This document shows positions 423 through 32,401 of a stretch of DNA of 32,659 nucleotides, in pieces. Source of the stretch: a virus; the IMG/VR virus record IMGVR_UViG_3300030109_006050, positions 1-32,659 of that record; one strand, 5' to 3'. The notes beneath the pieces are model-generated. The model ran no database searches, was not told the origin of the DNA, and saw nothing but the letters and a program-made list of their open reading frames with translations. The translations under genes and the position numbers were made by a program. Within the stretch, counting starts at the first letter, position 1. Every line of letters starts with the position of its first letter.

Positions 423-608
423 TTACTTTACGCCTTTAAAAGCAACTTTTTTGATCTGAGCGTTGCTAGTCTGTCCTTTTGGACCTGCACCTTTGTTTTG
501 TTTAACAATAAAAGGTGAATAAACTATCGCAGCATCAGAACCTACTTTCAAATTTGGAAATGGATTTTTTTGTTTTACCACTTCTACTTTTGTTTTTTTA
601 AAGTTCAT
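423..608 (-). CDS. Small basic hypothetical protein (61 aa)
   Basis: This 61-residue protein is rich in Lys, Val and Gln and has no Cys and no membrane segment. Its ATG overlaps the stop codon of the preceding gene in a TAATG junction, so it is probably translated by coupling. The C-terminal half reads like short beta strands (IVYSPFIV, IKKVAFKGV). I do not recognise a family. Its place among small genes downstream of the portal suggests a late virion or head-completion accessory protein, but nothing in the sequence proves that. Confidence 0.6.
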   Translation of the reverse strand: MNFKKTKVEVVKQKNPFPNLKVGSDAAIVYSPFIVKQNKGAGPKGQTSNAQIKKVAFKGVK

Positions 609-814
609 TATCTTGCCTTTCCATATCCACGTTGAGCTAATCTACCTGCTAGACCACCGTTTTTAAAACTTGTTTTAGTATTAATAATTGATCCTTCTCT
701 AGAACCTTTTACCATACCGCCTTTTTTTAGAAAACCCATTTTGTTACGAACTTGTTTTGGTAACTTTGGTAACCCTTTATTATTTTTTGGTACTGGTTTT
801 AAATTTTTTTTCAT
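608..814 (-). CDS. Small Gly/Lys-rich phage protein (68 aa)
   Basis: A 68-residue, strongly basic protein with two Gly-Gly patches (KKGGMVKGS around residues 30-38 and KNGGLAGRL around 52-60) and the C-terminal end RGYGKAR. Similar short GG-hydrophobic patches occur in several large late proteins of this window. No enzymatic motif is visible. The start is ATG 814-812, one base beyond the stop of the upstream gene, and its own stop is fused with the next gene's start as TAATG. The high charge and low complexity suggest a nucleic-acid-contacting or structural accessory protein; this is inference. Confidence 0.6.
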   Translation of the reverse strand: MKKNLKPVPKNNKGLPKLPKQVRNKMGFLKKGGMVKGSREGSIINTKTSFKNGGLAGRLAQRGYGKAR

Positions 815-3547: not shown

Positions 3548-5893
3548 TTATAAATTATTAATATCAATTAATCCACCAAAATTAAACGAAGGTATAGGTA
3601 TACGCCTTTTAATGAGGCCGCCATCTTTTTTCTTTTCAATTAAACTCTCTAAGAGTTTGACGACTTTGCTGCTTTCGAGGATGTTTTTGTAGCTTTCGTC
3701 TCTTGATTTTGAGACTGCTTGGATCGTTTTGATGAGACTGTTGAGATAGTCGATGTTGAACGTGGAAGACCTGTTATCTTCAAGAATTCCTGTGCTGATA
3801 CTTCTTTGAAGGCCATTTATAATCTTTCTATAATCGTTTTTTTCTAAATAGTCACCTGACCAATAGACGTTTCTGTTATATACCATATCAGCTTTATCAC
3901 CAAATACTTTTTCAAATCCTGATTTTATAAGGCTTCCTTCTGGAGCTTTATTATCAAAAGTGAGGAATTCTGCAACAAAACCTCCTGGTACGTTCTTAAC
4001 ATTAAAATCAAGTCCAAGCTCATTGTGCAACTTTTGAATCTGATCCTGTGAGTAATTTCCTTGATAGTATAGCATGCCCGTTCTATTTCGACCCTCAATT
4101 GGTGTATCAGATATAATAAAATTGCTGGCAGCCATTGCGTCTTGATTTAAGTGCTGACCTAACAAAGCTAGCACCTGCATTCGTTGGGGATCCGATAATT
4201 CAACAAATTTGTTTCCAACCTTTACTGTAAGGGGGACGACAACATTAAAATTTGCTTTACCATCATAGGTGCCTGCTCCAAGTTTCATTTTACTTATATC
4301 CACTTTTTGTCCAATTACAGCTGAGACAGCCATTTCCATAATGGAAGGCTCTTTTCCTCTTTTTGTAATAAGTTTGCTAAGATTAGATCGATGAACTAAA
4401 TTGATTTGATTCATTAGCGTTTTATCATCACTAAAATTATTTATAAGCTGTTCAATTTTTTTACCATCTTCCGTTAAAAAACTTCCTACCTCTATTGTTG
4501 CTTTGACCGCCTCTTTGTAGGGAACCTGTGTTGCTTGTAGCTTTTCCACGAAGCGTGAATCAAGTATTTCTATTGGATCCAATTTATTATTTCTAAATTT
4601 AAATCCTTTTTCCTGAAGATCTGCGATAAGCTCGTTTCCCATATCTTCGTAGTTTGTTGATCCTCCTCGACTCTCTGACCATAATAAAGCCTGAAGCTGG
4701 TAGGGTTGTAATTTTTGATCATCAGGTAAATTTTTGTTAACCTCAAAAGTCATTCTGTTAAGTGAGTTTGTAATTAAAGCATATAATTCTGGATTTGATG
4801 CAAGTGTCGTTGGATCTATTCCAAATATTCTAGCCATTTGTAAATCATTAACGGTATTTGGTTCGCGGTCCGTGAGTCCCGTAAAATATTTAAACGTATC
4901 AACATAATTACCAAACTTAGGTGTGTTGACTACCTGATCAGGTAATTTTAAAAATTTATCGAGTGACTGTTCTTGGCGAAAACCCATGCGAATAGGGCGG
5001 CCATTCTTATAATCAGAAAATACTCCAATAGCAATTTTAAGGTTTTCTTTAGGAGTTACACCACCAGACGTGATTGATAGTATATCAAAAAATTTATTCT
5101 TATCCTCATCCGAATATCCTTCTAAAAAATTATCAACCCACTGAGCGCCTTTCTCGTACCAGAATCTAGATGCTGCGTCTCCTTCAAGAGCGCGATTAAC
5201 AAATTCTGCGTTAGGCATTTTAAAACCAAACTTCTCTGTTAACGCTTTCATGTCTATTTTAGTTTTACCGTCAAGCTCAGTAATTGATGATGTGCCTATT
5301 TGATTTAATAATTCATCATTAAAATCATAATCTATTTTTCCTGCTTCAATATTTGAATAGTCTATGCTTCTTAAATCTTTGTCCCCATAAATTTTAATTG
5401 GGTTTAAGGTTTCTATATATTGTTTAGTGTTTTTATCTTTAGCTAAAAATTCTTCTGCTTTTTTAAATTGTTTTTTAGCCTCTCTTTGAACAAGATCTTC
5501 AAATAGTGATTCAAAAATATTTTTTTGTGGGCCTTTGGGTTTTTTTGGAGGCTCATTATCTGGTTCGTCTCCTCTTGTCATTTCTGAAGAAGGCATTTTT
5601 TCCAAATCTTCTTCTTTAACATCTATAGGATCCTCGTCTTTTTTTGTTTCCAAAATAGATAAATCTGTTTTTCCAATTACTGGCGATGGACTATAGAAAC
5701 TATCCTCAAATGTTTTAAAATTATCTTTGTATTGATCTGGAAATAATTGCTCTATGTCTACCAAATCATCAGAACTGTAACCAGATAGGTCTATGCCTTT
5801 ATTCGATCTGAAATACTCAATAACAGCTGGTATGGTCAGTCCCATTCCCGCTGCAACAGTTGCTAATGGTATTAATGCTGCCTGAACTACCAT
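3548..5893 (-). CDS. Large unknown protein between terminase and portal (781 aa)
   Basis: A 781-residue protein of unknown role. Residues 1-30 contain a hydrophobic stretch (LIPLATVAAGMGLTIPAVI) that could be a membrane anchor. Residues 80-150 are acidic and Pro/Lys-rich, probably disordered. A folded region at about 230-410 has the pattern F-WYEKGAQWVDNF, then LSITSGGVTPKENLKIAIG, then TVNDLQMARIFG and YQLQALLW. It resembles a domain I recall from phage polyvalent and head-associated proteins (DUF7178-like), but I am not sure of the family. The C-terminus has two GGLI patches (758-761 and 773-776), a feature shared with other late proteins here. It directly abuts the terminase stop (TAA then ATG), so the genes are co-translated. 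An ejected internal protein is a reasonable guess. Confidence 0.75.
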   Translation of the reverse strand: MVVQAALIPLATVAAGMGLTIPAVIEYFRSNKGIDLSGYSSDDLVDIEQLFPDQYKDNFKTFEDSFYSPSPVIGKTDLSILETKKDEDPIDVKEEDLEKMPSSEMTRGDEPDNEPPKKPKGPQKNIFESLFEDLVQREAKKQFKKAEEFLAKDKNTKQYIETLNPIKIYGDKDLRSIDYSNIEAGKIDYDFNDELLNQIGTSSITELDGKTKIDMKALTEKFGFKMPNAEFVNRALEGDAASRFWYEKGAQWVDNFLEGYSDEDKNKFFDILSITSGGVTPKENLKIAIGVFSDYKNGRPIRMGFRQEQSLDKFLKLPDQVVNTPKFGNYVDTFKYFTGLTDREPNTVNDLQMARIFGIDPTTLASNPELYALITNSLNRMTFEVNKNLPDDQKLQPYQLQALLWSESRGGSTNYEDMGNELIADLQEKGFKFRNNKLDPIEILDSRFVEKLQATQVPYKEAVKATIEVGSFLTEDGKKIEQLINNFSDDKTLMNQINLVHRSNLSKLITKRGKEPSIMEMAVSAVIGQKVDISKMKLGAGTYDGKANFNVVVPLTVKVGNKFVELSDPQRMQVLALLGQHLNQDAMAASNFIISDTPIEGRNRTGMLYYQGNYSQDQIQKLHNELGLDFNVKNVPGGFVAEFLTFDNKAPEGSLIKSGFEKVFGDKADMVYNRNVYWSGDYLEKNDYRKIINGLQRSISTGILEDNRSSTFNIDYLNSLIKTIQAVSKSRDESYKNILESSKVVKLLESLIEKKKDGGLIKRRIPIPSFNFGGLIDINNL

Positions 5894-24376: not shown

Positions 24377-25293
24377 TATATTATCCTTGATCGATTAATT
24401 ATTTGTTCAGGAGTTAAAGCATAAGAATTTAAATTTGCAAACATCATCTCAGGTTCTTTTTTTATTGTTTTAATTTTTTGAATATTAGTAGGAGCATTTT
24501 CAACAACATTTGCTCCAGTATAAATTTCTGCACCTGTAGGAGTGTTCGTCATTAACGGTTGCTGATTTGTATTAAAAGTTCCATATCTGTAAGCATTTAA
24601 AGCACGATCCGCGGCCGATAAACCAGCATTAGTGTTTGCAATTCCAACTGGTGGATCGTTTCTAGTGTCTTTTATTATTCCTTTGTTCATAAAAAAATCA
24701 CTAACTTTACCTTTGCCTGCATCAAATAATCTTTGTACTGTTCCTATACCAGGAAGAAATTTTGAAACATTTCTTATTGTGGCACCACTGCTAAAAGGAA
24801 AAACCTGTTCATACATTGTGGGATTTGCATCGTAAAGACTCTTCATATACGTTGAATAATCAGCACTATTTAAATCCCCTCTTAACTTAGGTCTATTGGT
24901 TTGAGTGGCCCCTATATTCAAACCAAGAATTCCATCTCCTAAATTTCCAGTAAAGTCTGATCTTGAAACACTTTTTCCTTGTTGAAATTTTTCCAACATA
25001 TTTCTTCTTTGAGCATCTGCAATTCTTTTTTGTTGAGCATCTGCAATTATTGCTTTTGGCGCTTGACTTGCGATAGCTAAAGATCGAGTATCCATTGAAG
25101 GATTACTTTTCATTTCTCTTATTTTATCTCTTTCTCTAATAATCTTTTCTAGATTTGATACATTACTTTTTTTGTACCCTTCAGCTTTGTATTGACCTCC
25201 GCCAGTTTGACCGCCTTTACCATCAGGCTTACTTGCTTGTTGGACAACTTTATTGCCTATTCTGACCTCTCCGTGATATCCTCCGTGTGGCAT
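24376..25293 (-). CDS. Unknown late protein, Gly-rich N-terminus (305 aa)
   Basis: A 305-residue protein beginning MPHGGYHGEVRIGNKVV and with GKGGQTGGGQY around residues 25-34. A basic helical segment (about 45-105) includes a near-duplicate phrase, IIADAQQKRIADAQRRN. The remainder is low in charge and Asn/Thr-rich, typical of virion-associated proteins. There is no enzymatic motif. It is coupled to both neighbours by TAATG junctions. A tail or internal virion role is inferred from operon context. Confidence 0.65.
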   Translation of the reverse strand: MPHGGYHGEVRIGNKVVQQASKPDGKGGQTGGGQYKAEGYKKSNVSNLEKIIRERDKIREMKSNPSMDTRSLAIASQAPKAIIADAQQKRIADAQRRNMLEKFQQGKSVSRSDFTGNLGDGILGLNIGATQTNRPKLRGDLNSADYSTYMKSLYDANPTMYEQVFPFSSGATIRNVSKFLPGIGTVQRLFDAGKGKVSDFFMNKGIIKDTRNDPPVGIANTNAGLSAADRALNAYRYGTFNTNQQPLMTNTPTGAEIYTGANVVENAPTNIQKIKTIKKEPEMMFANLNSYALTPEQIINRSRII

Positions 25294-27938
25294 TACGCGA
25301 CCATTTGTTTTGGTTTATTTTTATTCATCAAAGACGCTATCCCGCCTTCATTAGCTTCAAATAATGGTAAACCTACTTGATCCATTTGCATTAAAGTGTT
25401 TGGATTAATAACACCACTTGCTTGTTGAGGCATTTGCATGTTTGGATCTGGCATGGTTGGAACAACACTAGCCATTTGAAAATTTTCATCTGGAGTAGGA
25501 ATATTAAAACTTGTTTGAACTACTGGTAATTCGTCTTCAATAACCGTATTATTACCCTCTAATCTTTCTTTAAGTTGTGTGTCTTGATCTATTATGGAAG
25601 GTATAGGCTCACTATCTACTCCTAAATTTAAACCATCTAGTAAATTGTTATAAAATTGATACTCAGTAGTGTTTTTATCAAAACTATCTCTCAAATCATT
25701 TAACATGTTAGAGACATCCAATTGTTGTTGCTCACCAGGATTTTCTTTTAGATGTAAATCAAAAACATCTTGTGTAACTCTCTGCCAAAACCTAGGTCCT
25801 AAAGGTAATTTTGTAAAAGGCACATTTGTTATTTTGCTTTGTCTTGCTGGATCAAAAACAATATTGGCTGCCTTTGCTAAATTAGGATTACCTAAAACTT
25901 TTGTTAATCCGTATCTTGAAATTAGTAAACCTAGTAAACCAGCAAACCCTGGACCTGCTCCTAAAACAGCTCCTCCTGCTACACCAGCTGAGCCAACTAT
26001 GCCTCTTATAAAAGGCTGTAAGCCTTTAATTTGAGCTGATCTTTGAAGATAACTTGAAGGATCGCCTATTTTTATACCAGCTTCAAAAGCTCCATAATCA
26101 ATAAAATTTTTTAAAAATTGTGGATCAATGCCCGCTTCTTTTAATAAAAATTTACCTCTTTCATCTAAATTTCTTACGTCAAAACCCAATGCTTTTGCAA
26201 GGGCGCCTGGATCAAATTTTAAAACTTTATCTTTAGACGCTTGAGAACCTATTCCTCCAATAGTTTGTTCAGCTACATCAAATTGACCCCTTGCGCTTTG
26301 AAACGCTTTGTCAACAAATTCTCTTGCTACACCTTTAAATACTTTATCTCCTAAAATTGTTTTTAAATCAAATAAAGTAGTAGGAGATTTAATTTTTAAA
26401 ATTGAATCTAACATTAAATCAATGTCTTTTTTTGTAATGTCTAAGCCTGTGTCAAATATATTTTTTGTAAATACATTAAAAGAATTAGCTGCTGGGCTTT
26501 CAAACAGTGTTTTAAAATTTATAGTAAAATTATTAGCTGCTTTGTGAGCATTAATTAATTGATTAGCTAGTTCATCATCTGCTATTTTTGTAATATCAAC
26601 ACTACCAGGCATTATAGCATCATCAAGACCGACCTTTATTGTTTTAAGAATTTTAGCAAATTCTTTATTCATTTGTGTGCCTTGATTTACTATGTCATTG
26701 TAATAAGAGTTTAATTTACCATTCCATTGTCTCAATTGTTCGTAAGAAATATTACCACCTTGTTCGATAATACTTTTTTGTGTTTTATTAGCCCAATTAA
26801 AAAAATCTTTTACAGCAGTGTTGTTTGTTAACCTTTCCATATCGTTAACTCTAAACCAACCAGAATCTTTTAAATCATCAAAACTACGCATTACACCACG
26901 ATTATCGGTCATTCCAACAAACTCACGTAAAGTTTTTCCCTGTCCAAGATCCATGATACTACCAAATAATTTATTTGCATTTAAAACGTTTGGGTCTGAT
27001 AAACCTTTATGTAAATCGAAAGCTTGGTTCCAGAGTTGCGCTGATGTATTTTTCATAGATTTGAATTTTTGTACACCTGTGTTAAAAATTGAAATACCAA
27101 GCTCTGTATACTTACTTGTAGGAGCTATTTTAGCTAACATATTATCAAAAATATTATTAAGCTGTTTTAATCTTGCTCCTTTACTATTTCTTAATCCGCC
27201 ACCTATAAAAGGTAAAATACCAAGAGGTTTTAAAACAAGTGATCCAATTTTAGATTGAGCAGCAATATCAAGTTCAATACCTAAACTTTGAGCTATTCTT
27301 CTAGCTTTTTGTATTGCTGGATCACTAAAATCTAAAGTAGCTCTAGCTAATTTTGGAACTACTTCTGGTATTAATAAACCAATAGATTCCCAAAATATTG
27401 CTTCTTTTGTATCTTGATTTAATTGTTTAAAATTTGGTTTATAATCTTCATTACCTGTAATTAAATATTGTGCAATATCATAAGCTTGTGCACCTGTTAT
27501 TGATCCAAAAACACCGCCAAAAAATGCTTTTCCAAAAGCTCGGGTAATGTTTACAGGATTTGTTGGTAAATTTTTAAGATTTTTAATCTTAAACATATCT
27601 TTTAAACCTGGTAAACTTCCAAATGTACTACCAGCAATAAAGGCATCGTCTCTATCAATAAATATATCTAAACCTTCATACTGTGGCTCCATACCAAATT
27701 CTTTTAATAATTTATTTAAGTAAGTTTTATCGTATGCAGATTTAGATTTTTCAAATGCAGCAATGATTTCTTCATTTCCTGAGTTATAAATTTGTTGAAT
27801 TGTTTCCTTATCAAATTGATAATCTTCACCTTTAAAAGCCTCAACAATTTTTTTAATTCTTTCCGCTTCTTGTTCAGTAGGTGTTTGACCCTCTATTTCT
27901 ATTGGAAAAGGAATTCCATCTACCGTTATAATACCCAT
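25293..27938 (-). CDS. Large late protein, probable internal virion/ejection protein (881 aa)
   Basis: An 881-residue protein. Most of it is helical, with a Gly/Ala-rich hydrophobic region around residues 140-165 and another around 635-665 (GSAGVAGGAVLGAGPGFAGLLGLLIS), which could insert in a membrane. The C-terminal 120 residues are Pro/Met/Gln-rich and probably disordered, ending with NEGGIASLMNKNKPK. Size, helix content and glycine-rich membrane-active segments resemble podovirus internal core/ejection proteins. No enzyme motif (for example lysozyme) is seen. It sits between two other large late genes and is separated from the upstream one by a single base. The family is unrecognised; an ejection role is an inference. 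Confidence 0.7.
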   Translation of the reverse strand: MGIITVDGIPFPIEIEGQTPTEQEAERIKKIVEAFKGEDYQFDKETIQQIYNSGNEEIIAAFEKSKSAYDKTYLNKLLKEFGMEPQYEGLDIFIDRDDAFIAGSTFGSLPGLKDMFKIKNLKNLPTNPVNITRAFGKAFFGGVFGSITGAQAYDIAQYLITGNEDYKPNFKQLNQDTKEAIFWESIGLLIPEVVPKLARATLDFSDPAIQKARRIAQSLGIELDIAAQSKIGSLVLKPLGILPFIGGGLRNSKGARLKQLNNIFDNMLAKIAPTSKYTELGISIFNTGVQKFKSMKNTSAQLWNQAFDLHKGLSDPNVLNANKLFGSIMDLGQGKTLREFVGMTDNRGVMRSFDDLKDSGWFRVNDMERLTNNTAVKDFFNWANKTQKSIIEQGGNISYEQLRQWNGKLNSYYNDIVNQGTQMNKEFAKILKTIKVGLDDAIMPGSVDITKIADDELANQLINAHKAANNFTINFKTLFESPAANSFNVFTKNIFDTGLDITKKDIDLMLDSILKIKSPTTLFDLKTILGDKVFKGVAREFVDKAFQSARGQFDVAEQTIGGIGSQASKDKVLKFDPGALAKALGFDVRNLDERGKFLLKEAGIDPQFLKNFIDYGAFEAGIKIGDPSSYLQRSAQIKGLQPFIRGIVGSAGVAGGAVLGAGPGFAGLLGLLISRYGLTKVLGNPNLAKAANIVFDPARQSKITNVPFTKLPLGPRFWQRVTQDVFDLHLKENPGEQQQLDVSNMLNDLRDSFDKNTTEYQFYNNLLDGLNLGVDSEPIPSIIDQDTQLKERLEGNNTVIEDELPVVQTSFNIPTPDENFQMASVVPTMPDPNMQMPQQASGVINPNTLMQMDQVGLPLFEANEGGIASLMNKNKPKQMVA

Positions 27939-27939
27939 T

Positions 27940-30480
27940 TTATTGTTTATTAATTATCGCTTCTATTTCATCAAGCGTGTATGTTTTCTGATTTTGAAAT
28001 CCTTCTGATCCTTCACCAGCATTATAATTTTTTATTTGATCAACCATTTCATTTAGTTGATCAATTTTAGGAGATAAAGCTTGTAGATCTATATTTTGAT
28101 CGTCATCTGTTGTAACCAGTTTTAAATATTCTTGTAACAATCTGGCAACCTTCTCAGCAACAGCATCAACTTTACCTATTGCTACCTCCGATCCAAAAAA
28201 CCCTGTTGGATCAATTTCTTTTAAACTAATAGCTTCTTGCGTTGTTGTAGGTTGTCTGGTTCCTTTGAAACTAGCTAAGTCTGCAATACCTCTTGCTATA
28301 GAGTTTTTAAGATTTTGTATTTCTTGAATTTCTTCCTTACTAAATGCACTTGATATTTTTCCTTGATCATCAATAAATTGATTTCCAAGATAAGCATTAT
28401 CTATTTGATTAAACATTGTGAATAAGCCTTGAAAATTTTCTAAAATCATACCAGGAAACCCACCAATACCTGGATCATCGACAAGTATTTGTTTCATTCG
28501 TAATAATTCATTTAATGTAGCATTAGATCTAGCTATTAATTTATTAATATCATCTATTTCAGTTGTAGATTTTACACCCTCTTGTGAAATACCAATGTCG
28601 ATATTTGAAGAATTTTCTCCTGAAGGCGGTGTTCCTTCGCTACGCTCCACAATACCACCTTCTGCTTTGTTTTCTTTGCCCGCATAAGTGACTGTTGAAC
28701 CTTTTTTGCCCAAAAATTCTGTTAGATTATAATTAAATTGTAGTTCAGATCCTGGTGGATATAATTCATAAAGTTTGTTAAAATCAATTACTCTTGTTGT
28801 TTCAAGCCCGCCTTCGCCCATTGGGTTTCCTCTAGGTCCTGTTGGTGCATCTTTATACAAACCTAATAAAGCAGCAATAAATCTGTCTCTATCTTTATTT
28901 AAACCTGTAACAAAAGTTTTTTTGTCTTTAGTTTTTGCTGCTTGATTTTTTAATGACTGCAATTGTTGTTTTTGCGCTTGAGTTAGTGCAGCCATTGCTA
29001 ATTGCGTTTTTAATTGACTTTGTTTTGCTCCTTCCTGCACTCCAATTTTATTTATATCTCCAATAAATCCCTTTAAACTATCGTCAGCTGTTTGACCTGA
29101 TCCAAATTCTAGTAATCTATTAGCTGCTGCAAAATTTAAAGCAGCTTTAGATTGACTTGGATCAGATAATCTATTCATTAGAGACATATAGGTTGCATAA
29201 TTATCTTCAAAATTTTGCTGTAGAGGAGACATCTCACCAGTGATAGGTGATCCAGTATTACGCATTACGACGTCTGTAGCACCAATACCAGCTGGTTGTG
29301 AAGGCATCATCATTTGTCCTTGATCCATTTGAGCTATACCTTCATTTGATGAAGTTGCGTCTAACATTTGCATAACTGGTTGAACTAAAACTAAAACAGA
29401 TTCAGGTGTTTTATCGGCATCGGTTTCACCAACAACATCTGCTAATTCATCTCTTCTTTGTTCTTCTGTTTGTTCGTTACCTCTTATTGCATCCATTAAC
29501 TCAACATAATCTGCAGACTCATCCACAGCTTTTTGTTGATTTTCACCTTCTTTCAATATTTCTGAAGCCATTCCCTCGTCGTCTTTAAAACCACTCATGA
29601 TACCAACGTTTTCAGGATCAACTGTTTCGCCTTGCATAGGAGATCCTTGGTTTCTCATTTCAGGCATAAATTTTGTGCCATATACTTCATCCATTTCAAA
29701 TTCTCTTTCTAATCGATCATGTGTTTTAAAATATTCTTCCATGCCGCCTATTCTATCAAAATACTTATTCACTAGCTTATCTCGAATTTTTCTATCTTTT
29801 TTATATTGCTCTTCGTCTCTTTCAGCAGGACTTTGCATTCTTTCTACAATAGCTATCATCGTTTCTATTTCGTCTTGAGTACCAAATGCCTGAATAAGTT
29901 TTAATTCTGCTTCTGGAACATAGTTTGGTCCTTCTAGTTTTACGTAATCTTCCATTGTAAACTGAGCAACTCCCTCATCACGATCAAATTGTTTTGATAA
30001 GTCACCAGCGCCTGATGCGAACTCCATTAGTCTATTAATTCTTTTTTCTCCAAATCTATCAGATTTTTCGCCTGAAACGGGAGATCCCTCTTGTCTGTTT
30101 CTAATACCCTCTACTTCGTTTTTAAAATTTTCAATACCGTCAATATAACTTTCACCTTCGTTTTGATAGTTACGTTCAATAAATGATTTAAATGATGGAT
30201 CATCTGGATCATAGTAATCGCCGCCAATTATCAATCGACTTTCAGGATCACTACGACCAAAAGTAAAATAGTCTGAAATACTATCAAATATTTTACTTAA
30301 AAAACCTTGTTGTTGAGGCTGCTGTGCTTGTTGATTCATCGCTTGATCCGCTGTAAATTCATAAGGATCAAAACCTTTAGCAATATAATCTTCTACAGTA
30401 GTTTCACCAGATACGGGTGACCCAGTTTGCCTTCTTACTGGCATAGTTCTTTGAAACATTTGTCTATTCATCACACTCAT
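27940..30480 (-). CDS. Large late protein with five GSPxxGE repeats (846 aa)
   Basis: An 846-residue acidic, Gln/Asp/Glu-rich protein. Its outstanding feature is a short repeat with consensus R-x-x-G-(S/T)-P-x-x-G-E, at residues 16-26, 128-138, 276-285, 407-416 and 612-622, plus a degenerate RGNPMGEGG near 550. The segments between are of different length and sequence, so it is not a simple tandem repeat. A Gln-rich helical region lies around 480-520. There is no membrane segment or catalytic motif. It is coupled by TAATG to the gene upstream. I believe similar repeats exist in other marine phage virion proteins but know no function. A scaffold, internal or tail-fibre-connecting role is possible. 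Confidence 0.7.
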   Translation of the reverse strand: MSVMNRQMFQRTMPVRRQTGSPVSGETTVEDYIAKGFDPYEFTADQAMNQQAQQPQQQGFLSKIFDSISDYFTFGRSDPESRLIIGGDYYDPDDPSFKSFIERNYQNEGESYIDGIENFKNEVEGIRNRQEGSPVSGEKSDRFGEKRINRLMEFASGAGDLSKQFDRDEGVAQFTMEDYVKLEGPNYVPEAELKLIQAFGTQDEIETMIAIVERMQSPAERDEEQYKKDRKIRDKLVNKYFDRIGGMEEYFKTHDRLEREFEMDEVYGTKFMPEMRNQGSPMQGETVDPENVGIMSGFKDDEGMASEILKEGENQQKAVDESADYVELMDAIRGNEQTEEQRRDELADVVGETDADKTPESVLVLVQPVMQMLDATSSNEGIAQMDQGQMMMPSQPAGIGATDVVMRNTGSPITGEMSPLQQNFEDNYATYMSLMNRLSDPSQSKAALNFAAANRLLEFGSGQTADDSLKGFIGDINKIGVQEGAKQSQLKTQLAMAALTQAQKQQLQSLKNQAAKTKDKKTFVTGLNKDRDRFIAALLGLYKDAPTGPRGNPMGEGGLETTRVIDFNKLYELYPPGSELQFNYNLTEFLGKKGSTVTYAGKENKAEGGIVERSEGTPPSGENSSNIDIGISQEGVKSTTEIDDINKLIARSNATLNELLRMKQILVDDPGIGGFPGMILENFQGLFTMFNQIDNAYLGNQFIDDQGKISSAFSKEEIQEIQNLKNSIARGIADLASFKGTRQPTTTQEAISLKEIDPTGFFGSEVAIGKVDAVAEKVARLLQEYLKLVTTDDDQNIDLQALSPKIDQLNEMVDQIKNYNAGEGSEGFQNQKTYTLDEIEAIINKQ

Positions 30481-31367
30481 TACACTACTCCATATCTTCT
30501 AAGACCGCCAACACCTAAAAACGCACCTAAACCTGTTCCAAGAGCCGCTTGAATTGGAGATGGTCCTCCGCCACCAGATCCCATTGTACTCATAACTTGT
30601 GAGGATGTCGGAGCTCCTTGTAAAATATCACCATAAAAACCTAATTGTTGATATGGCTGCATTATGGTCTGTAGCTGATTTTGTCTTGCAAGATCAAGAC
30701 CAGATTGATTAAACTGTTGTTGTAACGCGCCAATACCTAATAAGTTTTGTATGTCTGATTGACCAAACTGTTGTGCTTGTTGTCCAAGATTTGCTTGTTG
30801 TGCTCCTAGTGCACCAATACCAAGTCCAATAGCTCTTTCTCTTTCTAATTGATTAAGCGCTGCTTGTTGTGCTTGTTGAAAATTTTGAAGATTTAAATTT
30901 GCTAGTGCAGAAGCTCTTGTATCCTGTTGTCCTTTTGCTAATTCTGCTTCAGCTACACCGAAACGCGATCCGCCGAACACGCCTCCTCTAACAGCATCAC
31001 CTGCTAATTGATTTTGTTGCATCGCTGCTCTTTTATCTAACTCAGCTAAAGTAGTATCAATAACTTGTTGTTGAAAAGGATTTGAGTAAGCTGCTATTTG
31101 AGAACTAGTCGGAGCTCCAGTAGCGGCCGATAATAAATTAGTTGCTGCGTCAGTTGATAATGACGCTTTTTGTAAAAAAGGTTCGTAAGCACCGATACCT
31201 GTTAAAGCATTTTGAAAAGCTAATTGTTGTGTTGGTGTAAATGCTGCTTGTTGAAAATCAGGAAGAGTATAGCCTTTTTCTGTTAAAGCTTTTGCCGTAT
31301 CAATTAAACCTAGTTTTCTAGCTTCAATATCTGGGGCTTCTCTATTTATATACTCTGTCGTAGACAT
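30480..31367 (-). CDS. Gln/Ala-rich late protein, probable virion/ejection protein (295 aa)
   Basis: A 295-residue protein almost wholly helical and rich in Gln, Ala and Leu. It has the pattern EYINREAPDIEARKLGLIDTAKAL at the N-terminus, YSNPFQQQVIDTTLAELDKR in the middle and VFGGSRFGVAEAEL soon after. I recall this trio in marine podovirus virion proteins. The long Q/A heptads (about 150-240) suggest a coiled-coil bundle. The C-terminus is Gly-rich. It has TAATG junctions on both sides. Such properties fit an internal core or DNA-ejection protein, though a tail component is possible. Confidence 0.7.
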   Translation of the reverse strand: MSTTEYINREAPDIEARKLGLIDTAKALTEKGYTLPDFQQAAFTPTQQLAFQNALTGIGAYEPFLQKASLSTDAATNLLSAATGAPTSSQIAAYSNPFQQQVIDTTLAELDKRAAMQQNQLAGDAVRGGVFGGSRFGVAEAELAKGQQDTRASALANLNLQNFQQAQQAALNQLERERAIGLGIGALGAQQANLGQQAQQFGQSDIQNLLGIGALQQQFNQSGLDLARQNQLQTIMQPYQQLGFYGDILQGAPTSSQVMSTMGSGGGGPSPIQAALGTGLGAFLGVGGLRRYGVV

Positions 31368-32401
31368 TAATTAACTCCTCTTGATTGTGATGATAGTGTA
31401 CCACCTTTTTCTAAATTTTTCATTGTTTGATACATACGTTTTGCACCTTCTCTTCTATCACCGCCTCCAGCATTTCTTACTGCTTTTGCTGTAAATACAA
31501 ATTCACCATCGCTTAACATAGCAGGTATATCATCGCTTGTGCCAGTGCCTGGTCCGTTTATAGCACCATTTTTACGAGGGAAAAACTCTTTTGATCCATT
31601 TGCTAATTGAACTACACCGCCTTCAGCTGCTCTAATAAAATCATCTGGAAGTTCGTTTACAGGAAATCCTTGATAGTCTTGTAATGTATCATAATATACT
31701 GGTTTTACTCCTTGGCCTGCTACCTGAAACTCTTCAGGATTTTGATAATAAAAAGGGTTTAGTCTTGCTTCGTCCGCAGGAATATATTCTTGATTGTCTT
31801 GTGCAGCTTGATAAGCAGAATATCCTGCAAGTACAGGCAGTCCGTATTGTAATGAATTAGATAATAATGATGATTGAGGCTTTCCTGATAAAATATTTAA
31901 AGCTTGAGCATTTGAAATGCCATAAGAGTTAGCAAAATTATTTACTGCAGTCGGAGATAAATTTCCAGCGCCTTGTTCAAATAAAAAGTTTTCTCCACCT
32001 CTACCAGGAATTAAATTACCTATTCCAGAATAAAACCTTGATCCTAAATCGGGAGAAAGAAATTGTCCTGATAACATATTGCCTGATCCAGGTAGTCCCA
32101 TAAAACCTTGAGCCGAAAGATTAGCTACATTTCCTCCAAAAAATCCTGCTCCTGCAAGATTACCAAGTCCCAAACCTAATGCAGCTGTTTTTAAAGCTCT
32201 GCTGCCTCCTTTACCTGCAACAAGTGATCCTATTCCACCACCAATTGCAGCTCCTGTTGGACCGCCTAACATAAAACCCACAGCCATACCTGCTGGTTCA
32301 GCAACTTTTTTTACAGTGTCTTTTACCTTTTTAAATATTTTACCAACAAAACCACCTATTCCGTATTGTGGTATAGTTTGTAAAAATTGTTCATCAATCA
32401 T
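31367..32401 (-). CDS. Gly-rich late virion protein with PAMLSDGEFV motif (344 aa)
   Basis: A 344-residue protein, first in the right late operon. Residues 35-95 are Gly/Ala-rich and hydrophobic and could span a membrane as in glycine-zipper proteins. The C-terminal third has AEGGVVQLANG (259-269) and then NGPGTGTSD followed by DIPAMLSDGEFVFTAKAVRNAGG (282-313). The PA-x-L-x-x-GEFV core is a recurrent motif in phage tail and tape-measure C-termini, of unknown exact role. AAGGAT lies 7 bases before ATG 32401. It is probably an injected or tail-tip protein; membrane activity is inferred from the glycine-rich region. Confidence 0.72.
   Translation of the reverse strand: MIDEQFLQTIPQYGIGGFVGKIFKKVKDTVKKVAEPAGMAVGFMLGGPTGAAIGGGIGSLVAGKGGSRALKTAALGLGLGNLAGAGFFGGNVANLSAQGFMGLPGSGNMLSGQFLSPDLGSRFYSGIGNLIPGRGGENFLFEQGAGNLSPTAVNNFANSYGISNAQALNILSGKPQSSLLSNSLQYGLPVLAGYSAYQAAQDNQEYIPADEARLNPFYYQNPEEFQVAGQGVKPVYYDTLQDYQGFPVNELPDDFIRAAEGGVVQLANGSKEFFPRKNGAINGPGTGTSDDIPAMLSDGEFVFTAKAVRNAGGGDRREGAKRMYQTMKNLEKGGTLSSQSRGVN

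Follow-up and report, generated by a model that had tools for sequence, protein, structure and literature searches.

A repeated ten-residue peptide in the predicted linkers of a modular phage protein: a candidate docking motif in a putative P22-like ejection cassette

Introduction

Why should a late phage protein carry the same ten-residue peptide five times, at variable spacing and with unrelated sequence between the copies? The question is raised by an ORF of 846 amino acids (aa) in a 32,659-base linear IMG/VR record, here called the window, the portal protein of which is 51-60% identical to those of Phage DSL-LC04 and the pelagiphages HTVC023P and HTVC027P. Even in P22, the recruitment of podovirus ejection proteins to the procapsid is understood only in part; we found nothing in the literature on this process in the present marine phage group, and no previous account of the motif. 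With the same ten residues recurring at every long joint, such a protein offers a concrete peptide for receptor testing. Should the peptide act as a loading tag, it would account for the way in which ejection-type proteins evolve through the exchange of modules, and its presence would show which functionally uncharacterised late proteins are carried within the virion.

Results

The 846-aa gene is the third in a block of four genes, the order of which is that of P22 14-7-20-16 (Table 1). Comparable blocks are present in DSL-LC04, HTVC023P (with one small gene inserted), HTVC027P, and Caulobacter phage RW; in the window and in these four phages, as in P22, the gene lies between a gp7-like and a gp16-like gene. 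The gp16-like assignment of the 881-aa neighbour is by position, and the protein in the same position in phage RW has an SLT (transglycosylase) domain. The GGI core of the C-terminal tag of the 881-aa protein is retained in the orthologues of motif-bearing relatives. Motif-bearing relatives also keep a peptide of the form LFANEGGIASLM...QMVA at the C-terminus, and in the other group many gp16-position orthologues have ends of the GIGSLM/GIGSL type.

Comparison of the 846-aa protein with P22 gp20 by hhalign, using a 48-row profile, gave no match (probability 0.1, E 0.62), and comparisons with P22 gp7 were likewise negative. Pfam and PHROG scans, also with the 48-row alignment, returned no function (no phrog match at 0.001), a PDB sequence profile search returned nothing usable, and a Foldseek search of the PDB with an AlphaFold2 model built with 48 sequences, whose mean pLDDT is only 61, gave no fold match at E<=0.001. 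The one BFVD match, A0A516MFJ9 (E 2.8e-6), is unnamed. Because there is neither detectable gp20 similarity nor a PDB fold match at this threshold, an ejection role is assigned from the order of the genes and the identity of the neighbours, and for the same reason we do not file the protein in the P22 gp20 family. On the basis of this synteny the protein is probably of the ejection type, kept in the head until it is injected along with the DNA. When 84,980 genomes of bacteria and archaea were scanned, no relative of the query alignment was confirmed, and thus no host link was obtained.

Table 1. Cassette genes, motif copies, and predicted modules in the window
Feature	Positions	Strand	Residues	Remarks
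344-aa neighbour	31367..32401	-		P22 gp14 position; tape-measure-type C-terminal peptide SDDIPAMLSDGEFV and EGGVV
295-aa neighbour	30480..31367	-		P22 gp7 position; PHROG "DNA ejection protein" phrog_4287, E 3e-14
846-aa modular protein	27940..30480	-		middle protein of the putative ejection-type cassette; ORF; IMG/VR relatives
Motif 1	30403..30432	-	17-26	RQTGSPVSGE; N-terminal tail, right after MSVMNRQMF
Module 1	30097..30243	-	80-128	predicted folded; pLDDT 71-96 per ten-residue block
Motif 2	30067..30096	-	129-138	RQEGSPVSGE
Module 2	29704..29967	-	172-259	predicted folded; AlphaFold2 model
Motif 3	29626..29655	-	276-285	RNQGSPMQGE; ahead of ENVGIM
Module 3	29353..29577	-	302-376	most conserved domain (RRDELADVVG..DADKTPESVL.L.QPV)
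Motif 4	29233..29262	-	407-416	RNTGSPITGE
Module 4	28747..29232	-	417-578	predicted long helices and short beta part; AlphaFold2 model
EGGIV	28648..28662	-	607-611	GG-x-V element directly before motif 5
Motif 5	28615..28644	-	613-622	RSEGTPPSGE
Module 5	28012..28569	-	638-823	predicted helical C-terminal part; AlphaFold2 model
881-aa neighbour	25293..27938	-		P22 gp16 position; C-terminal tag EANEGGIASLM

The peptide R-x-x-G-[ST]-P-x-x-G-E is present in five copies in the 846-aa ORF, a number far from the chance level: over 20,000 shuffles, the core G[ST]PxxGE appeared on average 0.0027 times per protein (Poisson P about 1e-15 for five copies). The original prediction of five copies with unrelated sequence between them is borne out on both points; its nucleotide span (28615-30432) agrees with ours, and three of its residue starts are one off. 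Among the ORFs outside the family in the loci analysed at that stage, 844,072 aa in all, the full motif does not occur, and in six whole related records it is confined to the gene of the 846-aa type, with a count of zero for the reversed-pattern control. The five window copies use different synonymous codons and are therefore not a recent DNA duplication; recent tandem duplication as their origin is ruled out by this divergence. The peptide, and not the DNA, has been kept, which argues for selection on the protein. A collagen-like or DNA-binding reading (SPKK, AT-hook) was dropped, the motif ending in GE and being near neutral.

Searches of viral contigs identified 109 distinct relatives of the protein, of which 30, from IMG/VR, carry the motif (76 copies, 1-5 per protein) and 79 do not; no motif-bearing cultured phage was found in the phage collection. 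Since most relatives are without the ten-residue peptide and have GG motifs, the peptide is specific to a lineage. Within the close group, motif 1 follows the start M-x-V-x-N-R-x-M-F, motif 3 stands just ahead of ENVGIM, and GG-x-V usually precedes motif 5; motif 4 is also found in L127, as GGPVYRKFGSPKTGE. The domain at aa 302-376 is the sole region conserved across all aligned relatives. Following the final E of the motif there is no conservation, and P3 is variable (Q, M, T, S, E, G) with GE fixed. In 27 relatives, identity to the window is 0.65 for the fixed motif letters, compared with 0.22 in folded residues, 0.20 in the rest of the linkers, and 0.14 at the x positions of the motif. The fixed letters of motif 3 are identical in 27/27 close relatives aligned, yet the pLDDT of this copy is about 30, and it is thus conserved although no fold is predicted for it. 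In L138, L126, and L142 the stretches between motif copies contain another short peptide that is repeated, of the type DPNSVVREGE. In L001 (7200-10286) two adjacent ORFs, of 369 and 658 aa, apparently encode the protein in two parts, with the break after the conserved domain.

The AlphaFold2 model of the window protein consists of separate modules with low-confidence segments between them. All five motifs are located wholly inside segments of pLDDT<50, none elsewhere, and each such linker of at least 40 residues contains exactly one motif (chance about 0.002). In a second AlphaFold model, that of L127 (790 aa, 37% identical), 5/5 motifs fall in its four long low-confidence segments, giving 10/10 copies in low-confidence linkers for the two models together, although low pLDDT may be partly due to the thin alignment and is no proof of disorder. 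The original prediction favoured a short linear motif over a domain repeat, and named a lack of conservation in homologues among its grounds for rejection. The relatives give the opposite result: 30 of them have the motif in the gene at the corresponding position, with its fixed letters conserved, the x positions and flanks are not conserved, and the copies are in predicted unfolded linkers. This combination of conserved letters and variable, predicted-unfolded surroundings is that of a short linear motif; a composition-based disorder scale does not add support, rating the motif flanks no more disordered than random positions.

The relatives also differ in the modules that they carry. The window protein and L118 have in common an extra module that brings a motif with it, one further module with a further motif is present in L118, and the sequence of module 2 is shared with L118 alone among the motif-bearing relatives compared. 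At the DNA level, L012 and L134 are 92% identical as far as nt 130, one base past motif 1, and are unrelated beyond that point, with homology resuming at motif 3; borders of a similar kind are seen in L135 and L138. Because DNA homology breaks at the motif in some pairs of relatives, modules have been exchanged between motif copies.

In the 79 motif-less relatives GG-x-V is enriched (161 versus 28 expected by shuffling), and several close relatives have YAMGGxVxP instead at the motif-4 site. The shared positions suggest that GG-x-V may be equivalent to the ten-residue motif. Within the window, the raw count of GG[ILVM] is 15 across the late proteins (5,392 aa) and 0 across the early ones (4,633 aa); it is found near the C-termini of the gp16-position and 781-aa proteins and also in a small late protein, and, to judge from sequence, the late-protein elements may be the same kind of loading signal. 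A broader possibility is that the motif and the GG-x-V elements constitute one virion-loading code, whereby the adjoining module is carried into the capsid and cargo domains are exchangeable, with GG-x-V replacing the motif in most relatives and ending several unrelated late proteins; we regard this broader reading as doubtful.

Several GG-containing sequences can be described in their own right. The 781-aa protein (window positions 3548-5893, minus strand) is encoded between the terminase and portal genes, contains DGGLIKRR and FGGLIDINNL at its C-terminus, and gave no phage match by tblastn. A 68-aa basic late protein (positions 608-814, minus strand) has two GG motifs, KKGGMVKG and KNGGLAGR. 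In about 20 relatives an EF-hand/dockerin-like loop, FPDLSGDGKITQKDIL, lies between the first two GG motifs, and such a loop is seen in the N-termini of L016, L023, L042, and L162.

Discussion

The present study suggests a model, to which we assign an even chance of being correct, in which the linker motif docks a modular chain into the procapsid. The gene product would be the middle protein of a P22-like ejection cassette and would consist of some five small modules, most of them helical, strung together by long unfolded linkers, and R-x-x-G-[ST]-P-x-x-G-E would be a docking motif, one per long linker and one in the N-terminal tail. During head assembly, several motif copies would attach to a site that is repeated on a single partner, in all likelihood the scaffolding protein or else a gp7-like or portal hub; the chain would enter the procapsid through many weak contacts and could be released upon exit of the scaffold, prior to its ejection with the DNA. 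With the docking signal placed between modules, these could be gained, lost, or swapped, with a motif at each joint. The original prediction named portal or capsid as examples of a partner; P22 biology points to scaffold, and this is our leading guess, because in P22 the scaffold is needed for E-protein incorporation, the portal is not required for it, and an N-terminal fragment of gp20 suffices to be packaged (PMC8402733, PMC4992974); a gp7-like protein, the portal, and a domain of the protein itself are possible partners.

The original prediction offered two roles for the motif, and of these docking fits better than a site for a maturation protease. If a phage or host protease cut after GE in each linker, the product would be five or six single-module cargo proteins; one motif per linker suits a polyprotein of this kind, as does the unconserved sequence after the motif E. 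There is precedent as well: T4-like and giant-phage prohead proteases cut after x-E, the E-proteins of SPN3US are cut several times (PMC10052503), P22 gp7 loses 20 residues to the host OpdA, and P22 gp20 may need host cleavage (PMC8954989). Nevertheless, we prefer docking over cutting because no Peptidase_S78 or S77 was found in six motif-bearing records (none known to be complete, and with the head region absent from the window), because no protease is recognised between portal and capsid in the cultured relatives HTVC023P, HTVC027P, and CRP-901, because conservation extends ten residues back, which is long for a cut site, and because two motifs lie 16 residues apart in one group of relatives (L127, L132, L136, L139, L140, L144, and L015). 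Also against cutting, the motif, with its variable P3, does not follow the A-x-E rule at P3-P1 described for SPN3US gp245 (PMC10052503), and it is in no other gene of the six whole records. A protease site is therefore, in our estimation, unlikely.

Two further explanations involve no external partner. In one, the motif copies would dock on a module of another subunit, for example aa 302-376, and so build a multimer or tunnel, and it can be noted that this domain is conserved in all aligned relatives and that a P22 virion contains about 30 copies of gp20 (PMC4992974). However, the domain is kept in the motif-less relatives too, and we judge self-binding to be quite unlikely. In the other, the motif would be mainly an evolutionary joint, a repeated linker sequence that acts as a recombination point and has no bound partner. 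This would account for the homology breakpoints at the motif and for the L126/L135/L138 group, in which the motif 1 and motif 3 copies have 90-94% DNA identity over 32 nt, but the synonymous differences among the window copies, with the peptide kept, indicate selection on protein and not on DNA and make a purely recombinational role very unlikely.

The docking model can be set against several known systems. The ejection proteins of P22 (gp7, gp20, and gp16; gp14, gp15, and gp16 in T7) are similar in that the late-region order is gp14-7-20-16 as in P22, the gp7-position neighbour matches the PHROG DNA ejection protein, and the related RW cassette has a peptidoglycan hydrolase in its gp16-position protein. 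In contrast, the 846-aa protein could not be matched, in sequence or in fold, with gp20 or any solved structure; no description of linker motifs or of swappable, linker-bounded modules was found for P22 or T7 in the literature searched. In the internal proteins of T4, which bear a capsid targeting sequence, and in the giant-phage E-proteins SPN3US gp53 and gp54, short peptide signals or propeptides are linked to prohead cargo entry. However, the T4 signal is a single N-terminal peptide, whereas the window motif is spread over all linkers (copy 1 is N-terminal and four more are internal), and the giant-phage propeptides are removed by a phage prohead protease, none of which was found here. HTVC023P, HTVC027P, DSL-LC04, and the GG-x-V IMG/VR relatives have middle-cassette proteins at the same gene position, with an N-terminal RxMF-type start shared by the window protein, HTVC023P, HTVC027P, and most IMG/VR relatives, and a domain of the aa 302-376 type shared by the window protein, DSL-LC04, and IMG/VR relatives; in contrast to the window protein, they have GG-x-[VI]-type elements instead of, or without, the motif. 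Finally, multivalent short linear motifs in disordered linkers, as a general class, have in common with the window motif few fixed letters, many copies, variable spacing, and a predicted unfolded context.
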